From Bacteroidales bacterium (GTDB lineage: Bacteria > Bacteroidota > Bacteroidia > Bacteroidales > UBA932), in assembly GCA_016287875.1 (NCBI GenBank), contig JAEEXQ010000003.1, forward strand, positions 1 through 64,000: a stretch of DNA of 64,000 nt, read 5' to 3'. Position 1 is the first letter of the stretch. Each line of letters starts with the position of its first letter. Positions 38,372-47,176 of the stretch are shown piece by piece. Both the position numbers and the translations under genes were made by a program. The notes under the pieces are model-generated. The model was not told the origin of the DNA, did no database searches, and saw only the letters and a program-made list of their open reading frames with translations.

Positions 38372-41266
38372 CTATCTCGATATCGTTACTGTGTAATCAC
38401 TGAACTTCTTGGGCTCCTGGCTTATTTCCAGGGGCTTGCCACTGGCTACTTCAACGTTCCGGATGTTGATGACGCCCTTTCCGTAATTGCGCTTGAATTT
38501 TCCAAGGACCATGGGACCCTGGTAGTCTTTTTCGCTGACGCGGCTGTCGTCAATGACAAGGTTCTCGATATCAATTATTTCCGGGAGGTAACAGGCGTAA
38601 CCGAAGTCGTGCTCCCCGGCGTTGGATCCTCTCAGTATAGATACGTTTTTGACCCTTTCGGGAACGATGAGCTTGCAGTTCCTGACAATGACTTCGCCTT
38701 CCCAGGAACTGCCATAATCCTCCCTGAGGGTGATGAGGGACTTGCGACGGACGGTGCAGCCATCAAGCAGCAATGTTCCGTAACCTACGACATTGACGCC
38801 CGTGTGTCCGAACTCGCAGCCTGTAAGGGTGACGTTCCTCACCCCCTGGTGGGCATCGAAGCGGGATAAGATGCAGTGGTCCAGGGTGAGGGCCTTGCAG
38901 AAGTTGGAAACGAAGATTCCCCAGTAATGGGTGTCGTTTATATCGGTGGTCTGGGTGCAGTTCTCCCATTTGACGGCCACGCAGCCATGGGCGGAGATGT
39001 CGTATGTTCCCATACTGACGCCCACGCCGGCAGATCCTATGGTCCTGTAAGTCTTATGTGCTGTGAAAAGGCAGTCGCTGACCACGATGTCGGCGGCCGT
39101 GTCCAATGACAGGAAGCCGTCGTACGGGGCGCCGTGGTCGAGTTCTCCTTCGATATAGTGGGATATGCCCTCAATCCTGACGTTGGACCTCTCGACGGCT
39201 ATTCCGCGGCCGAAGTAAGTGTACTTGGAAGGAGCCTGATTGGCGATGGTGGTGAAAATGCCGCCCTTGATTGTCAGAGGCTTATCGTCAATGGGGTGGG
39301 CAGTCATCCGGGTGATCTCGTCGTAATCCCAGATAAGCGAAGAGGAGGGCTCGATGTTGCCGTCGCCGTCGACGATGAAGAATTCTTTCTGGCTGACCCC
39401 GCTATTCTGGTTAGCGCCCAGGCGTATATACACTTTACGATTGTCATTGACCACTTCCACCAGGCAGCGGCCGGGAAGGGACTTGCCTATGTTGGTCTGC
39501 TCCCGCTTCAGGCTTCCGATTCCATCGATGGCAATGGGCTCGAGAGAGGATTCAACCCGGAAGATATAGTTCTCGCGGTCTTCGAGGCTGACACGGCTGT
39601 CGTCGATTATGAACTTGGCGGTACCGAAGTCGACATCGGTGCGGATTACGGCTGTCCCGGCCGTGTTGCCTATGTAATAAGTCTTTCCGTCGGCGGCCTT
39701 GACAGGGAGTCCCTTCTCATTGGCGGCCGCGTGGGTCGCAATGATGGCGGGGAGGTCGTCGGTGACGCCATCTCCCTTGGCTCCGAATTGCTCATAGCTG
39801 AGGTATTTCTGTGAAGCGCACGGGAATTCTATGAGTGCGATTGAATTATTGCATAATTTGACGCTCACGGTTCCGTCTTCGGCAGGGAAGAGAGGAATCT
39901 CGGTGTAATTGTGCCGATCGTCGGTAAGGTGGCAGTATACCATCTCGCCCGGATTGTAGCCCTTGACCGAAATGTTTACCGTCGCGATATTGCAAGCATT
40001 GTTGTCTCCGTTGTAACGGGTCAGCATGAGCGTGGTTTTGCCGTCCTTGACGGCTGCCATGGCATAAATATCCCCCTCGCCGCCTTCCAGGGTGCATTCG
40101 CACTGATTCCCGCGAAGTTTGTTCCAGGCGTAGAATACATAGTACGTAGGCATATGTTTCCGTGTCTGGGGATCGTAGAAACCGCAGAAGGAATCCACGT
40201 TCACGCGGAAATCATAATACATCAACATATCCACCGGAGCATCTTGCATCGCACACATGACGGCCCCCACGAAGGCAGCACCCTTGATGTTGAGGCGGGT
40301 TTCAAAGTTGTAGTATTCGTACGAAGATTCAGCGCCGCGCTTTTTCAGTTGCCAGTAATTCCACTCGGTCAGGAAGAGTTCTGCATCTTCATACCCGTAT
40401 TCCTTCATCCATTCCCTGAGCATATAGGCTTCCTTCACATATAACGAAGGCTCGACATCGTATTTATGCCAGGAGATGAAGTCGATAGGGACATTGTGGG
40501 CATGCATGTATTTGAAGAACTCCGGGAAATACAGATACGTCTTGTCGTGCAGGATCCTGCAGAATGAGGGGCCGCCTATCTTCAGGTCCGGGAAACGCTT
40601 TTTCAGGTGTTTCGCAGCAACTTCGTAGAACTTGAAGAACTCTTCCAGTGGGCCTCCCCAGGTACGGGGGTCGGTTTTCCATCGGCCGGAATCCTGGTCA
40701 AGATCGGCCTCGTTCCACATTTCCCAGTAGCGGATGTCGTAATGGAAACCGTCCGCCCAGCCTTCGTTGTAGTGCATTATCACATGCTCGCATATCCTTG
40801 CCCATTTCTTATAATCTTTCGGCGGATAGATGTTGTATTTGGCCTCCTGGTGGGTTTCGATGGACTGCCCGAGCCTGTACATCACCTTTGCGCCGGAATC
40901 CAGCAGAGTCTTGATAAAGGCATCGGTTTCGCGGAAATCATAGGAGGATTCCTTGTCGGGATCCTTGCTGAAATCCGGGAAAATGTCGGAAATATCCACC
41001 AGATGATAGCCGTAATAATCATCTACGGTTGAATCGTGGGTCCGGCAGAACGGGATATTCAAAATGCGGAAATCCTCCATCTGCTGCGGATCGTCTTCGG
41101 GGTTGGGCCCGTTGTTTACGGCGTTCATGGGCTTGATAGGTCCCTTGACCGTCGATGGATCGACGGTGGCCTTCACCAGCACGGAAGAAATATCCGGATG
41201 TGTTTTCTGGGCCTGCACGCCTGCCGCAACGAGAAGCGAAACGAATGCGAAGAGTATCTTTTTCAT
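38372..41266 (-). CDS. Two-domain secreted CAZyme: GH39-like (clan A) domain fused to a right-handed beta-helix (pectate lyase/GH28-like) domain
   Basis: YWEMWNEADL and LFLTEWNYW catalytic Glu motifs; then YEQFGAKGDGVTDDLPAI and beta-helix repeats. Confidence 0.78.
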   Translation of the reverse strand: MKKILFAFVSLLVAAGVQAQKTHPDISSVLVKATVDPSTVKGPIKPMNAVNNGPNPEDDPQQMEDFRILNIPFCRTHDSTVDDYYGYHLVDISDIFPDFSKDPDKESSYDFRETDAFIKTLLDSGAKVMYRLGQSIETHQEAKYNIYPPKDYKKWARICEHVIMHYNEGWADGFHYDIRYWEMWNEADLDQDSGRWKTDPRTWGGPLEEFFKFYEVAAKHLKKRFPDLKIGGPSFCRILHDKTYLYFPEFFKYMHAHNVPIDFISWHKYDVEPSLYVKEAYMLREWMKEYGYEDAELFLTEWNYWQLKKRGAESSYEYYNFETRLNIKGAAFVGAVMCAMQDAPVDMLMYYDFRVNVDSFCGFYDPQTRKHMPTYYVFYAWNKLRGNQCECTLEGGEGDIYAMAAVKDGKTTLMLTRYNGDNNACNIATVNISVKGYNPGEMVYCHLTDDRHNYTEIPLFPAEDGTVSVKLCNNSIALIEFPCASQKYLSYEQFGAKGDGVTDDLPAIIATHAAANEKGLPVKAADGKTYYIGNTAGTAVIRTDVDFGTAKFIIDDSRVSLEDRENYIFRVESSLEPIAIDGIGSLKREQTNIGKSLPGRCLVEVVNDNRKVYIRLGANQNSGVSQKEFFIVDGDGNIEPSSSLIWDYDEITRMTAHPIDDKPLTIKGGIFTTIANQAPSKYTYFGRGIAVERSNVRIEGISHYIEGELDHGAPYDGFLSLDTAADIVVSDCLFTAHKTYRTIGSAGVGVSMGTYDISAHGCVAVKWENCTQTTDINDTHYWGIFVSNFCKALTLDHCILSRFDAHQGVRNVTLTGCEFGHTGVNVVGYGTLLLDGCTVRRKSLITLREDYGSSWEGEVIVRNCKLIVPERVKNVSILRGSNAGEHDFGYACYLPEIIDIENLVIDDSRVSEKDYQGPMVLGKFKRNYGKGVINIRNVEVASGKPLEISQEPKKFSDYTVTISR

Positions 41267-41355: not shown

Positions 41356-42255
41356 TCAGAACCGTTCCATCGCTTTTTCGAAGGCATTGTTCTCGGTCAG
41401 GATGCGCAGGAATTCCCCTGCGCTTTTTTTTCTGTAGCTGCCTTTCAGATAATGGTAGCACCCGTCCATCCTGGCATCGGGATGGTCGATGGGAACGGCC
41501 TCGAATCCTTGGATGTGGTGTATGGCCTCCTCCGAAACGGTAGTAACCAGAGGACTGTTCTCCACTATGTCCAGCAGCACCCTTACGCTGTTGATTTCCA
41601 AGCGTATATCCAAGTTGACGTGCTCTGCATAAATTATGGATTCCAGCGTGTCGCGGGCCTGCAAGCCTTTAGCCGGCAGGGCGAGGGGAAATTTGGAGAG
41701 TTCCTCCACCGAGACGGTGGGTCCGCATCCTGTCAGTTCCCCTATGCGGCCCACAAGGCACAGCCGGCTGTGGAACAGCAGGCTGGAATCGATGTGTTCG
41801 TCTCCGATGGGGGATTTGTAGGTCAGGGCCAGGTCCAGTTCCCGGTTCAGGAGCTTCTGCCTGAGGACTTCCTTGGTGGTGATGGTAAGATTCAGCTTTA
41901 TATGCGGATACTGCCTGTAAAAGGGGAGTACCGTGCGCATCATCATCGGCGAGAATGAATAGGTACATCCCACGCTCAATTCTCCGACCTGAAGGTTCTT
42001 TACGTCCATTATCCTTTCGGCTCCGGCTTTGGCTTCCTCCAGCACGCGTACGGCGCTGGGATAGAACTGCTTGCCATAGTCGCTGAGGGCGACGTGACGG
42101 GTGTCGCGAGTGAGCAGTTCCACGCCCAGTTCCTCCTCCAGCTTGCGTATCTGCTGGGAGATGGTGCTCTGGGTGATGAAAAGGTTTTTGGAAGCAAGGG
42201 AATAACTCTGTAGCTTGCCCACTTCCACGAAATATTTCAGCTGGCGTAATTCCAT
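41356..42255 (-). CDS. LysR family transcriptional regulator
   Basis: MELRQLKYFVEVGKLQSYSLASKNLFITQSTISQQIRKLEEELGVELLTR. Confidence 0.94.
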   Translation of the reverse strand: MELRQLKYFVEVGKLQSYSLASKNLFITQSTISQQIRKLEEELGVELLTRDTRHVALSDYGKQFYPSAVRVLEEAKAGAERIMDVKNLQVGELSVGCTYSFSPMMMRTVLPFYRQYPHIKLNLTITTKEVLRQKLLNRELDLALTYKSPIGDEHIDSSLLFHSRLCLVGRIGELTGCGPTVSVEELSKFPLALPAKGLQARDTLESIIYAEHVNLDIRLEINSVRVLLDIVENSPLVTTVSEEAIHHIQGFEAVPIDHPDARMDGCYHYLKGSYRKKSAGEFLRILTENNAFEKAMERF

Positions 42256-42274
42256 ATCAGACAGTATTTTGGGA

Positions 42275-42282
42275 CAAAAATA
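42275..42282 (-). promoter_or_regulatory. -7 box TATTTTTG for the LysR gene
   Basis: CAAAAATA on + strand. Confidence 0.5.
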
Positions 42283-42413
42283 GATATATTTATCGTTTTT
42301 GCCTAATAATTCTATCGAAAAAAACCTTGTCAATCGATAAAATAATCGGTTTTTCGTGCCTAAATTCGCGTCCCCCTAACTAGATAAGTTTTTGCTATAA
42401 CAGACAAGACACA

Positions 42414-43919
42414 ATGTTCAAGATTTTTACAGGATTCCATCTCGTCGAGCAGATGCACAAGCTGGGCCAGTCGAACAGGCTCAACCCCGGTTTGCTGAAG
42501 AAGAAAAGCATAGGCCTCATTTTCGTCGCAATAATTTTCCTCGTACTCTGGTTCCTGCCGACAGAATCCTTCGGGATGGACGGACTGACCCGTATCCAGC
42601 AGAGGATCATCGCCATTTTCGTCTATGCCACCCTGATGTGGGTGATGGAGCTTGTCCCCGCCTGGGCTACCTCGGTTTCGATAATGGTACTGCTGCTGCT
42701 ATTTGCATCCGATTCCGGCATCCGGTGGATATGCAATCCGGAGATCGTGGGACAGCTCCTCAGCCACAAACAGGTTATGGCCAGTTTCGCGGATCCCGTG
42801 ATCATGCTGTTCATCGGCGGATTCGTGCTTGCGATCGCAACCACTAAAACCGGCCTGGACGTCCATCTGGCCCGTGTCCTGCTTACTCCTTTCGGCAAGA
42901 AGAGCGAGAATATACTCCTGGGATTCATGCTGGTCACGGCCCTGTTCTCGATGTTCATCAGCAACACCGCGACCACCGCTATGATGCTGACCTTCCTTGC
43001 ACCGGTTTTCAAACAGCTTCCCGAGGCGGGAAAGGGACGCATCGCAATGGCCCTGAGCGTTCCTATCGCAGCCAACCTGGGCGGAATGGGAACCCCCATC
43101 GGCACGCCTCCCAACACCATCGCCCTCAAGTATCTTAACGATCCCGAAGGCCTGAACATGGGCCTGGGTTTCGGCCAGTGGATGCTTTTCATGGTCCCGC
43201 TGGTAATACTGCTGATACTGATTGCCTGGACCCTGCTCATCAAGATATTCCCCTTCTCCCAGAAGACCATCGAACTTAAGATTGAAGGTGAGATGAAGCG
43301 CGGCAGGACCACCGTCCTGGTAATCGTTACCTTGATAGTTACCATACTCCTCTGGATGATGGACAATGTCACCGGCATCAACCCTAACACCGTCGCGCTT
43401 ATTCCATTCGCGGTATTTGCGATGGCAGGGATAATAACCAAATACGACCTCGAGGAAATCAACTGGTCGGTTATCTGGATGGTTGCAGGAGGTTTCGCCC
43501 TTGGATATGCAATGAACGGTTCCGGACTGGCATCGCTGGTGGTGCGCGCAATTCCTTTCGGAGATTTCTCGCCTATACTGATAGTAATCCTTTCCGGCCT
43601 GCTTTGCTACGGGCTCTCCAATCTCATCTCCCACTCTGCTACGGCTGCCCTCCTTATGCCTATACTCGTCGTGGTCTGCACCGCAATGGGCGATAAACTG
43701 AGCGACGTGGGTGGTACTTCCACATTGCTGATAGGTGTTGCCATAGCCTCCAGCAGCGCTATGATACTGCCTATTTCCACTCCTCCGAATGCCCTTGCCT
43801 ATGCTACCAATCTGATCCAGCAGAAGGATATGATCAAGATGGGCATCATCGTAGGTGTCATCAGCGTAGTGCTGGGCTATGCAGTCCTGTTCGCTGCCGG
43901 GTCGCTGAATATTATCTGA
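42414..43919 (+). CDS. SLC13/DASS family sodium:dicarboxylate symporter
   Basis: Multi-TM; SNTATTAMMLTFLAPV, GGMGTPIGTPPNTIAL, ILPISTPPNALAYAT. Confidence 0.9.
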   Translation: MFKIFTGFHLVEQMHKLGQSNRLNPGLLKKKSIGLIFVAIIFLVLWFLPTESFGMDGLTRIQQRIIAIFVYATLMWVMELVPAWATSVSIMVLLLLFASDSGIRWICNPEIVGQLLSHKQVMASFADPVIMLFIGGFVLAIATTKTGLDVHLARVLLTPFGKKSENILLGFMLVTALFSMFISNTATTAMMLTFLAPVFKQLPEAGKGRIAMALSVPIAANLGGMGTPIGTPPNTIALKYLNDPEGLNMGLGFGQWMLFMVPLVILLILIAWTLLIKIFPFSQKTIELKIEGEMKRGRTTVLVIVTLIVTILLWMMDNVTGINPNTVALIPFAVFAMAGIITKYDLEEINWSVIWMVAGGFALGYAMNGSGLASLVVRAIPFGDFSPILIVILSGLLCYGLSNLISHSATAALLMPILVVVCTAMGDKLSDVGGTSTLLIGVAIASSSAMILPISTPPNALAYATNLIQQKDMIKMGIIVGVISVVLGYAVLFAAGSLNII

Positions 43920-43939: not shown

Positions 43940-45535
43940 ATGAAAAAAGTATTCATCCTTACAGTCCTGGTGCTGAGCCTGGCTGTGTCCTGCAAAGAAA
44001 AGAAGTCTCCTTTCGAAAGGAACTTAGCTGAATATGCAGTGGTGAAGATCCCTGCACCCGACCTGAGCGGCATTACCGACAACGGAAAGGAAGTTCTCAA
44101 CCTGTACCGTTTCGCCGCCAAGGAAATCGACGCCATCTACTGGGAACAGTATTTCGGCGACAAGTCCCAGCTGGATACCATTTCGGATCCCGCACAGAGA
44201 AACTACGCCCTTATCAATTACGGCCCTTGGGACCGCTTTACCGGGAAGTCCTTCGTCGCCGGTTATGACGACCGCCGCCCCGGAGCCGGCTTCTATCCGG
44301 AGGATATGAGCGTCGCCCAGTTCGAAGCCTGGGAGAATCCCGACAAGAACAGCCCCTACACCCTTGTGCGCCGTGCAGCCGACGGCAGCCTGGAGACCGT
44401 GTGGTATCACGACGCATACAAGGAGCACATCGAGAAGATTGCCAGCTGCCTGACTGCTGCCGCCGACATCACCATAAAGCCCAGCGTGAAAGATTATCTC
44501 CTCAAGAAAGTGGAGGCCCTCAAGACGGATGACTACTATGCCAGCGAAATCGCCTGGCTGGATATGGACGACAGCAAGATGGACCTCGTGATAGGTCCTG
44601 ACGAGGCCGTCGATGACCAGCTCCTGGGCATCAAACGTTCTTACGAGGCATTCGTGCTTCTGAAGAACGCCTCCAGCACCGAAGAACTTACCCAGTATGT
44701 CTCCAGGATAGGCGAGTTCCAGCAGGAACTCCCCGGAGATCCCGCGTACAAGCAGTTCCAGCCCGGTTCCGGCTCGAATATCTTCTCTTGCGATGCTCTC
44801 TACTATGCCGGAAAGGCCAATGCCGGAGTCAAGGTGATAGCCCTGAACCTCCCCTTCGACCCCAAGGTGCAGGAGGAGAGGGGAACCCGTACCATACTCC
44901 TCGAGAATATCATCAGGGCCAAATACAACGCCATCATCTTCCCTGCCGGAGAGGTGCTTCTGGAGACCGGTGAGGACGTGCAGACATCTTCCGACGCCTT
45001 CTTTTGGAACATAGCCCTCCGCGAGGTTTCCCACGGTCTTGGCGTGAAAGAGACGGTGAACGGGAAGGGGAGCGTGGAGAGCGCCCTGGGCAACATGGCA
45101 CAGACTTTCGAGGAGATGAAGGCCAATGTGGCCGGCGTGCTGCAGGTTTGCAAGCTGCAGGACCACTACGACATCCACCATATCTTCACGAAGAAAGATG
45201 CCCTTACCACCTTCTTCGTCTCCCTGGTGCGTTCCGAGCGCTTCGGAGAGGGTTCCGCCCTGGGCCGTGCCAACATCGCCATCTACAATTACCTGCAGGA
45301 AGCCGGAGCATTCAGCCGCAAGGCCTCGGGAAAGTACACCCTGGATTACAAGAAGATGGAGGAAGCCCTTTCGGATCTTACCGCCCTCATACTCAAGACC
45401 CAGGCTACCGGAGATTACGAGTTCGCCTGCGAGTTCGAAAAGAAATACTCGAAGCGCAACGAGAACTACGCTGCCGACAGGCTGAACCTCGGCATTGAAG
45501 GAATTCCTGCCGATATCCGCTTCGAATTCGAATAA
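43940..45535 (+). CDS. M49 (DPP III)-related lipoprotein, copy 1; first HExxH His replaced by Arg
   Basis: REVSHGLGVKETVNGKGSVESALGNMAQTFEEMKANVAGV, lipobox AVSC. Confidence 0.75.
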   Translation: MKKVFILTVLVLSLAVSCKEKKSPFERNLAEYAVVKIPAPDLSGITDNGKEVLNLYRFAAKEIDAIYWEQYFGDKSQLDTISDPAQRNYALINYGPWDRFTGKSFVAGYDDRRPGAGFYPEDMSVAQFEAWENPDKNSPYTLVRRAADGSLETVWYHDAYKEHIEKIASCLTAAADITIKPSVKDYLLKKVEALKTDDYYASEIAWLDMDDSKMDLVIGPDEAVDDQLLGIKRSYEAFVLLKNASSTEELTQYVSRIGEFQQELPGDPAYKQFQPGSGSNIFSCDALYYAGKANAGVKVIALNLPFDPKVQEERGTRTILLENIIRAKYNAIIFPAGEVLLETGEDVQTSSDAFFWNIALREVSHGLGVKETVNGKGSVESALGNMAQTFEEMKANVAGVLQVCKLQDHYDIHHIFTKKDALTTFFVSLVRSERFGEGSALGRANIAIYNYLQEAGAFSRKASGKYTLDYKKMEEALSDLTALILKTQATGDYEFACEFEKKYSKRNENYAADRLNLGIEGIPADIRFEFE

Positions 45536-45551
45536 GCAGGAAAACTTTTGC

Positions 45552-45559
45552 TAAATTTG
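45552..45559 (+). promoter_or_regulatory. -7 box TAAATTTG upstream of M49-like copy 2
   Basis: TAnnTTTG, 18 nt before ATG. Confidence 0.5.
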
Positions 45560-45577
45560 TAGAAACTGTAACCAATT

Positions 45578-47176
45578 ATGAAGAATCTGATAGTTGTATG
45601 TTCGGTCCTGGCCCTGGCCGCCGTTTCCTGTAAGGAGGAAAAGGTCGATGTGGGCAGGCTGGTGGATGATTATGCCCTGGTGGAGATACCGGCCCCGGAT
45701 CTGACGGGCATTACCGACAATGGCAAGGAGGTCCTCAGGCTTTACCGACTGGCCGCCGACGAGGTGGACAAGATATACTGGCAGCAGTATTTCGGCGACG
45801 GAGCCGCCTTCCTGGATTCCCTCGAGGATAAGTCCGAAAAGCTTTATGCCGGAATCAACTACGGCCCTTGGGACCGCATCACCGGAAAGCCTTTCCTTCC
45901 CGGTTTCGGGCAGAAGCCTGCCGGTGCGCGTTTCTATCCCGAAGATATGACTGCAGAGGAATTCCGTAATTGGGACAACCCCGACAAGAGTTCTCCTTAT
46001 ACCCTCGTGCGCCGTGCCGACGACGGCAGCCTGGAGACCGTATGGTACCACGATGCATATAAGGAATCCATAGGCAAGATAGAAGGGTTGCTGCAGCGTG
46101 CGGCCGATGTTACCATAAAAGAAAGCGTACGCAAGTATCTGCTCAAGATGATCGAAGGCCTCAAGACCGACGATTATTACGAGAGCGACAAGGCCTGGCT
46201 GGAGATGAACGACAGCAAGATGGACCTCGTCATCGGCCCCATAGAGGCCGTGGACGATGGTCTTTACGGCACCAAGGCTTCCTACGGGGCATATGTGCTG
46301 CTGAAGAATCTCCGCCGCACCGAGGAGCTCAACGCCCTTTCGGCCCGTATGCAGGAGTTCCAGGCAATGCTCCCCGGCGATGCCGCCTTCCACAGCTTCG
46401 TGCCCGGCTCCGAGTCGGATATCTTCTCCTGCAACGTGCTATACTGCAGCGGTTACACCAATGCCGGCTTCAAGGTCATAGGCATCAACTTCCCTTATGA
46501 TGCCAAGGCCCAGCAGGAGTACGGCACCCGCACTATAATCTTCGACAACATCATACGCGAGAAGTTCAACCGTACCGTCCATCCCGTGGGCAGCGCCCTG
46601 CTGGAGGATGTTTATCAGCCCCACGTGGATGCGAGCGCTTTCTACTGGCTGATAGTATTCCGCGAGATAGCCAAGGGACTGGGTGTCAAGGAGACTGTAA
46701 ACGGCAGGGGAACTGTCGCAGAGGCCCTCTCGAGCGAGGCCCTGGTGATGGAAAAAGCCAAATCCAATGTGCTGGGTGCCTGGCTATGCGCACAGGAGGC
46801 TGCCGCGTACAATATCTCCACCCTTTTCCAGAAGGAGGATGTACTTACTACCTTCGTGACAAACATAATCCGTTCTACCCGCTTCGGCGCCGCGGATCCT
46901 ACCGGCATAGCCAATATAGTGGTCTATAATTATCTTCTCGAAAGCAACGCTATCGACTGGAAACCTTCCGGCCGCTATAGCATCGACTACGACAGGACCT
47001 GGAAGGCCCTCGAAACCCTTGGCTCGGAAATACTCCGCATCCAGGCCTACGGCGACGTGGAAGCCGCCCGCAGCTGGATTGCCAAGTACGGCATCGCCGG
47101 CCCCGAGAGCCTATCCGACAAGCGGCTCCTGGAGAAGTCCGGTATCCCCGTGGATATCCGTTTCAGCTACGAGTAG
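45578..47176 (+). CDS. M49 (DPP III)-related lipoprotein, copy 2; both HExxH His replaced
   Basis: REIAKGLGVKETVNGRGTVAEALSSEALVMEKAKSNVLGA; tandem paralog of the preceding gene. Confidence 0.75.
   Translation: MKNLIVVCSVLALAAVSCKEEKVDVGRLVDDYALVEIPAPDLTGITDNGKEVLRLYRLAADEVDKIYWQQYFGDGAAFLDSLEDKSEKLYAGINYGPWDRITGKPFLPGFGQKPAGARFYPEDMTAEEFRNWDNPDKSSPYTLVRRADDGSLETVWYHDAYKESIGKIEGLLQRAADVTIKESVRKYLLKMIEGLKTDDYYESDKAWLEMNDSKMDLVIGPIEAVDDGLYGTKASYGAYVLLKNLRRTEELNALSARMQEFQAMLPGDAAFHSFVPGSESDIFSCNVLYCSGYTNAGFKVIGINFPYDAKAQQEYGTRTIIFDNIIREKFNRTVHPVGSALLEDVYQPHVDASAFYWLIVFREIAKGLGVKETVNGRGTVAEALSSEALVMEKAKSNVLGAWLCAQEAAAYNISTLFQKEDVLTTFVTNIIRSTRFGAADPTGIANIVVYNYLLESNAIDWKPSGRYSIDYDRTWKALETLGSEILRIQAYGDVEAARSWIAKYGIAGPESLSDKRLLEKSGIPVDIRFSYE

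Follow-up and report, generated by a model that had tools for sequence, protein, structure and literature searches.

What role is left to a pair of peptidase-like lipoproteins whose zinc ligands have been partly or wholly replaced? The question is raised by two tandem genes in the window, by which we mean the whole stretch of 64,000 nucleotides of the Bacteroidales contig JAEEXQ010000003.1 that was analysed. As the earlier note had reported, two open reading frames lie on the forward strand at 43940-45535 (copy 1, 531 amino acids) and 45578-47176 (copy 2, 532 amino acids). They share 54% identity, and in a motif scan both carry a lipobox with Cys18 (LAVSC in copy 1, AAVSC in copy 2), a motif also detected in 72 of 79 copy-1 type and 59 of 69 copy-2 type sequences. 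The first gene of the operon encodes a DASS-family sodium:anion symporter of 501 amino acids (42414-43919, forward strand), with gaps of 20 bp between it and copy 1 and 42 bp between the two copies. A divergent LysR-family regulator (41356-42333, reverse strand; Pfam HTH_1 and LysR_substrate) precedes the operon, a convergent lysA follows it, and no tandem repeats were found. The window also holds a long reverse-strand open reading frame at 38375-41266 (about 964-972 amino acids), in which a glycoside hydrolase-like domain followed by a pectate-lyase-like repeat domain can be recognised by eye; at another locus (L073) a copy-1 orthologue is followed by a lyase-like gene resembling it.

Both proteins belong to the M49 family, exceeding the curated cut-off of 21 for Pfam PF03571 (30.7 and 32.1 bits), and the nearest solved structures by sequence are the short bacterial dipeptidyl peptidases III (DPP III) of Caldithrix abyssi (6eom; E = 7e-79; HEISH/EECKAD) and Corallococcus (5zum; E = 7e-66; HELMH/EEAKAD). 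With a 61-row family alignment as input, AlphaFold2 returned confident models of copy 1 (pLDDT 91.5, pTM 0.90) and copy 2 (pLDDT 93.3, pTM 0.90), the latter matching 5zum with a TM score of 0.90 and 6eom with 0.82, which places it in the DPP III fold. The relationship to M49 and DPP III that had been proposed from the sequence is thus borne out, and the window proteins have in common with these enzymes full-length homology, the fold, its two lobes, the sequence blocks and the position of the catalytic Glu.

They differ from them at the metal site. In 6eom, the zinc ligands are H379, H383 and the second Glu of EECKAD (PMC5805324, in which this Glu is printed as both 412 and 442; 412 matches the 6eom chain). 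The HExxH of 6eom and 5zum aligns exactly onto REVSH of copy 1, where the first His is replaced by Arg361 (CGC, 45020-45022; Arg stands here in 184 of the 238 aligned sequences), while His365 (CAC, 45032-45034) and Glu392 (GAG, 45113-45115) are retained, leaving two of the three ligands. Copy 2 has none of the three, the positions being occupied by Arg362 (CGC, 46661-46663), Lys366 (AAG, 46673-46675) and Lys393 (AAA, 46754-46756). The active-peptidase motif HExxH or HExxGH is therefore absent from both, with RExxH in copy 1 and RExxK (REIAK) in copy 2, as is the second motif EExK/RAE/D, which reads EEMKAN in copy 1 (Glu kept, Asp lost) and EKAKSN, within MEKAKSN, in copy 2 (Glu lost), the Asp of EExKAD being Asn in both. 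The codons confirm what the earlier note had said of Arg361 and His365; its account of copy 2 was right about Arg362, Lys366 and the loss of both His, but had overlooked the replacement of the third ligand. The active motif that it had given, HEVAHGLGIK...EEGKADILG, is close to that of intact relatives within the genus (HEVAHGLGVK...EEAKADILG at locus L021). We infer that both proteins are without zinc-peptidase activity, and copy 1, with His365 and Glu392 retained, might still bind metal.

Could copy 1 at least be a metal enzyme with an altered Arg, His and Glu site? There is a precedent in PolE (DUF6421), an Fe- and pterin-dependent enzyme without the DPP III motif (PMC12614342), which shares with the window proteins a DPP III fold devoid of the peptidase metal motif and is a distant structural match to the copy 2 model; in addition, His365, Glu392 and the catalytic Glu362 are invariant in the copy-1 clade. 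An Arg nevertheless occupies a ligand position, and PolE has a different metal site, whereas copy 2, which has lost every ligand, shows no replacement: no conserved His cluster is found in its clade alignment, and the clade-conserved His and Cys lie only at 157, 348, 284 and 403 (copy-1 numbering, here and below). An alternative metal site in copy 2 was accordingly dropped, and we regard an altered metal enzyme as very unlikely. As a separate observation, Cys284 of copy 1 (44789-44791) and its equivalent in copy 2 represent a Tyr-to-Cys change (IFSC) present in 94% and 100% of the respective Arg-type clades, with Tyr in intact relatives; the conserved Cys403 is a further feature of the copy-2 types.

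To place these losses in the family, we assembled 236 unique homologues from fetched loci, mostly from metagenome assemblies, together with the two PDB sequences, and coded each by first His, catalytic Glu and second His, then the EE pair, then the Asp. The set comprises 52 HEH-EE-D sequences (including the two PDB sequences), 11 REH-EE-D, 87 unique sequences in the copy 1 state (REH-EE-N) and 66 in the copy 2 state (REK-EK-N), besides small in-between states (REH-EK-N, 3; REQ-EK-N, 3; REH-ED-N, 4), Arg-types being enriched since the loci were gathered partly through the patterns of the two copies. The numbers of sequences sharing the copy 1 and copy 2 states indicate that the loss of the zinc site is not due to chance, and the catalytic Glu is present in every Arg-type sequence. 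Trees were built from alignments excluding both motif regions. In the careful tree of 64 rows, all 49 Arg-type rows form a single clade (100/100) nested among intact HExxH sequences, within which the REH-EE-D group splits off first (100/98 for the remainder) and the REK/REQ group (100/100) lies inside a 100/99 clade; a quick tree of 92 rows agrees. A single nested clade supports one His-to-Arg change before the duplication, followed in the copy-2 line by loss of the second His and of the Glu that forms the third ligand; the earlier note had likewise suggested inactivation before duplication and further loss in copy 2. How the later steps and the Asp-to-Asn change followed one another is less certain, since several small states recur. 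M49 lipoprotein homologues of other families at two further loci (L150:2033-3688 and L149:659-2374, both reverse strand) have independently degenerate motifs, HEMAV...NEVKAE in the former and FEISE without a clear second motif in the latter, so that loss of the site outside the genus may have occurred more than once.

These genes are not decaying. Using the Nei-Gojobori method on pairs of at least 80% identity, dN/dS against the orthologues at locus L033 is 0.088 for window copy 1 and 0.059 for window copy 2, and the medians are 0.083 in the copy-1 clade, 0.085 in the copy-2 clade and 0.064 among intact sequences. Purifying selection acts strongly on both copies and keeps the Arg-type proteins across more than 100 gut bacterial species; open frames in nearly all species together with dN/dS of about 0.08 rule out pseudogene decay and agree with the retained non-catalytic role proposed earlier. 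Many pseudoenzymes regulate an intact paralogue, and a long M49 protein of about 690 amino acids does occur in many other species of the genus. However, no other M49 match, intact or otherwise, was found in this genome, which is 97.5% complete, and on manual inspection of the tables each of the 53 genomes with an intact type lacked Arg-type copies. We therefore reject control of a peptidase paralogue for this genome and consider it extremely improbable as an explanation of the pair. Within this large genus, 198 of 300 genomes encode an M49 homologue, and the named records with a match are assemblies of Bacteroidales from rumen and gut.

What distinguishes the Arg-type genes is their neighbourhood. 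Same-strand neighbours were identified by profile searches of all reading frames and counted wherever a locus extended at least 1.5 kb to each side. A transporter adjoins 118 of 139 Arg-type loci versus 0 of 29 intact or HEV loci (Fisher p = 2e-19, uncorrected for shared ancestry; as all Arg-types form one clade, the counts are not independent). DASS directly adjoins 50 of 52 copy-2 orthologues, while in this window and at L033 the link runs through the tandem copy 1, and every copy-2 orthologue sits in a DASS operon; the corresponding figures are 31 of 63 for copy-1 orthologues, 0 of 28 for intact genes and 0 of 1 for the HEV gene. A PF06826 carrier adjoins 19 of the 63 copy-1 orthologues and all six REH-EE-D genes. 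This family, named for the aspartate:alanine exchanger AspT, includes aspartate, succinate and glutamate carriers (PMC9527358); it is an alternative neighbour of Arg-type genes but is not found beside the window genes, the PF06826 gene of this genome being on another contig. Several gene orders and two transporter families are thus associated with Arg-type M49, and at 18 flanked Arg-type loci neither a transporter nor a tandem M49 gene lies beside them on the same strand. DASS homologues themselves are present in 277 of the 300 genomes, including those with the intact type, and adjacency alone differs. Within 4.5 kb, a LysR gene accompanies 25 of 86 REH and 10 of 50 REK genes, compared with 0 of 27 intact (HEH) genes. 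At L173 and L237, DASS lies upstream of and divergent to the Arg-type M49 gene, with gaps of 81 and 115 bp, an arrangement that makes the same-strand counts an underestimate of the linkage. At L091 (3519-4928, reverse strand), an aspartase/fumarase-type lyase is encoded divergently from a copy-1 orthologue without an adjacent transporter.

The two proteins are also found joined. At L243, L172 and L275, DASS and M49 form one open frame of about 1000 amino acids, in which a short linker joins the two parts and a lipoprotein signal is lacking, and L242 carries a partial fourth fusion; their common zinc-site state and similarity suggest a single event, and all four may derive from it. The C-terminus of VcINDY lies on the periplasmic surface (PMC9098524), so a fused M49 domain would be on the same side of the membrane as a periplasmic lipoprotein. 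Adjacency and fusion attest to a functional link of the pseudo-M49 proteins with the transporter rather than to solute capture, and a genetically linked extracytoplasmic protein, fused in some species, is one of the features of a binding-protein-dependent secondary transporter. In other species some operons include a porin, and a glutamate dehydrogenase or aspartase/fumarase-type gene lies nearby. At L152, L039, L112 and similar loci, a porin-like gene follows the M49-DASS operon; one group of these genes matches Porin_4 and Porin_O_P, and the other, without a Pfam match, is porin-like by eye only. Such a gene would provide an uptake route from the outer to the inner membrane.

The symporter in the window matches the DASS model TIGR00785 with 245 bits (cut-off 198.6; E = 1.3e-72) as well as Pfam Na_sulph_symp. 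It shares motif 1 (SNT) with the family, to which VcINDY, LaINDY and SLC13 belong, while its second substrate/sodium motif is SHS instead of SNT; among related DASS proteins, this motif is SHS in 44 and SNS in 57. In the LaINDY exchanger, a His has been proposed as a sodium surrogate, which makes the sodium coupling of the window protein uncertain. Its nearest solved relative is the phosphate transporter PHO90, followed by human SLC13 proteins (NaCT) and VcINDY, so that a carboxylate is not the only candidate solute, phosphate being another. To our knowledge, the DASS proteins characterised so far need neither a binding protein nor any other extracytoplasmic subunit, a difference from the arrangement proposed here.

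The cleft itself has also changed. Positions were taken from the paper on C. abyssi DPP III (CaDPP III, 6eom) and include the zinc ligands. Glu222, Asn303, Lys328, Glu362, Glu391 and Arg431 are invariant in the clades of both copies, and Arg434 nearly so. S1/S2 residues, on the other hand, are replaced relative to short bacterial DPP III, and the following changes are fixed by clade: the S1 Asp (CaDPP III D310; position 292) is Lys in copy 1 and Tyr in copy 2, the second Asn anchoring the peptide N-terminus (N324; position 306) is Phe or Tyr, and the conserved His460 (position 441) is Leu or Thr. Tyr224 of intact relatives is also replaced, and Glu236 has become Gly in copy 2 only. Using formal side-chain charges, with metal and His excluded, the mean net charge over 24 cleft positions moves from -4.0 in intact sequences to -0.5 in REH-EE-D, 0.0 in the copy-1 clade and +1.9 in the copy-2 clade.

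The earlier note had suggested peptide binding as the retained function, with the lipoproteins holding short peptides uncut in the DPP III cleft while the symporter takes up related amino or organic acids. Glu222 and Asn303, the counterparts of residues that anchor the peptide N-terminus in CaDPP III, are indeed kept, as are Lys328 and Arg431, whose 6eom counterparts held an Ala-Lys dipeptide, and the inactive human DPP III variant E451A still binds peptides with micromolar affinity (PMC4824452). Against this stand the clade-fixed replacements at N324, D310 and His460 and the shift of the cleft from negative to neutral or positive. We also know of no DASS or AspT-type carrier that transports peptides, and we regard peptide binding as possible though doubtful. 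The proteins might instead not bind a solute at all and act on the symporter as a regulator, chaperone or scaffold, for instance by gating or stabilising it, since operon linkage and C-terminal fusion suit any permanent partner. Yet the clade-specific, nearly invariant changes, which a pure scaffold would not need, concentrate in the cleft: of the positions that intact sequences conserve, 11 of 20 in the cleft are changed versus 33 of 178 elsewhere (Fisher p = 0.0007, with the zinc ligands counted in the cleft), and such a role appears unlikely.

We lean, with modest confidence, towards former DPP III-type lipoproteins that have given up zinc-peptidase activity and become binding or accessory subunits, in the periplasm, of a secondary transporter, which in the window is the upstream DASS protein, and we favour this role as subunit of an anion transporter over that of a retained peptide binder. 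The two-lobed, closing DPP III cleft would be retained, and in copy 2 the Arg, Lys and Lys that took the place of the zinc ligands, with the conserved Lys328, Arg431 and Arg434, would form a cationic pocket. Judging from cleft charge and partner family, this pocket may capture an anion, with a dicarboxylate or an acidic amino acid the likeliest candidates and phosphate or another anion possible, and would hand it over to the transporter in the inner membrane; the symporter partnership and the fusions speak for transport of anions or acidic amino acids. The ligands of copy 1 and copy 2 may differ.

The closest parallel is TAXI-GltS of Bordetella, where a binding protein works with an unrelated symporter, fusions included, and glutamate binding has been measured (PMC12344293). 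Both systems place a lipoprotein beside a sodium symporter of a family without a previously known need for a binding protein, and both have fused versions elsewhere; the GltS partner, however, is a genuine TRAP-type binding protein whose binding of glutamate has been measured, whereas the window partner has a peptidase-derived fold and its binding is putative.

Current M49 annotation calls these proteins peptidases, and the literature searched contained no paper joining dipeptidyl peptidase III with the term pseudoenzyme. The family preserves an unusually ordered record of an enzyme passing to another role, in living sequences with an intact site and then with one, two and three ligands lost, the catalytic Glu always being kept, and the transporter link gives these pseudoenzymes a testable job. 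Such gene pairs are common among uncultured Bacteroidales of rumen and gut, for whose ecology the uptake of organic and amino acids is important. If the proposed role is true, DASS would be another kind of symporter using a capture protein, after TRAP/TTT and GltS, and a digestive enzyme would have been turned into the capture subunit of a nutrient pump.
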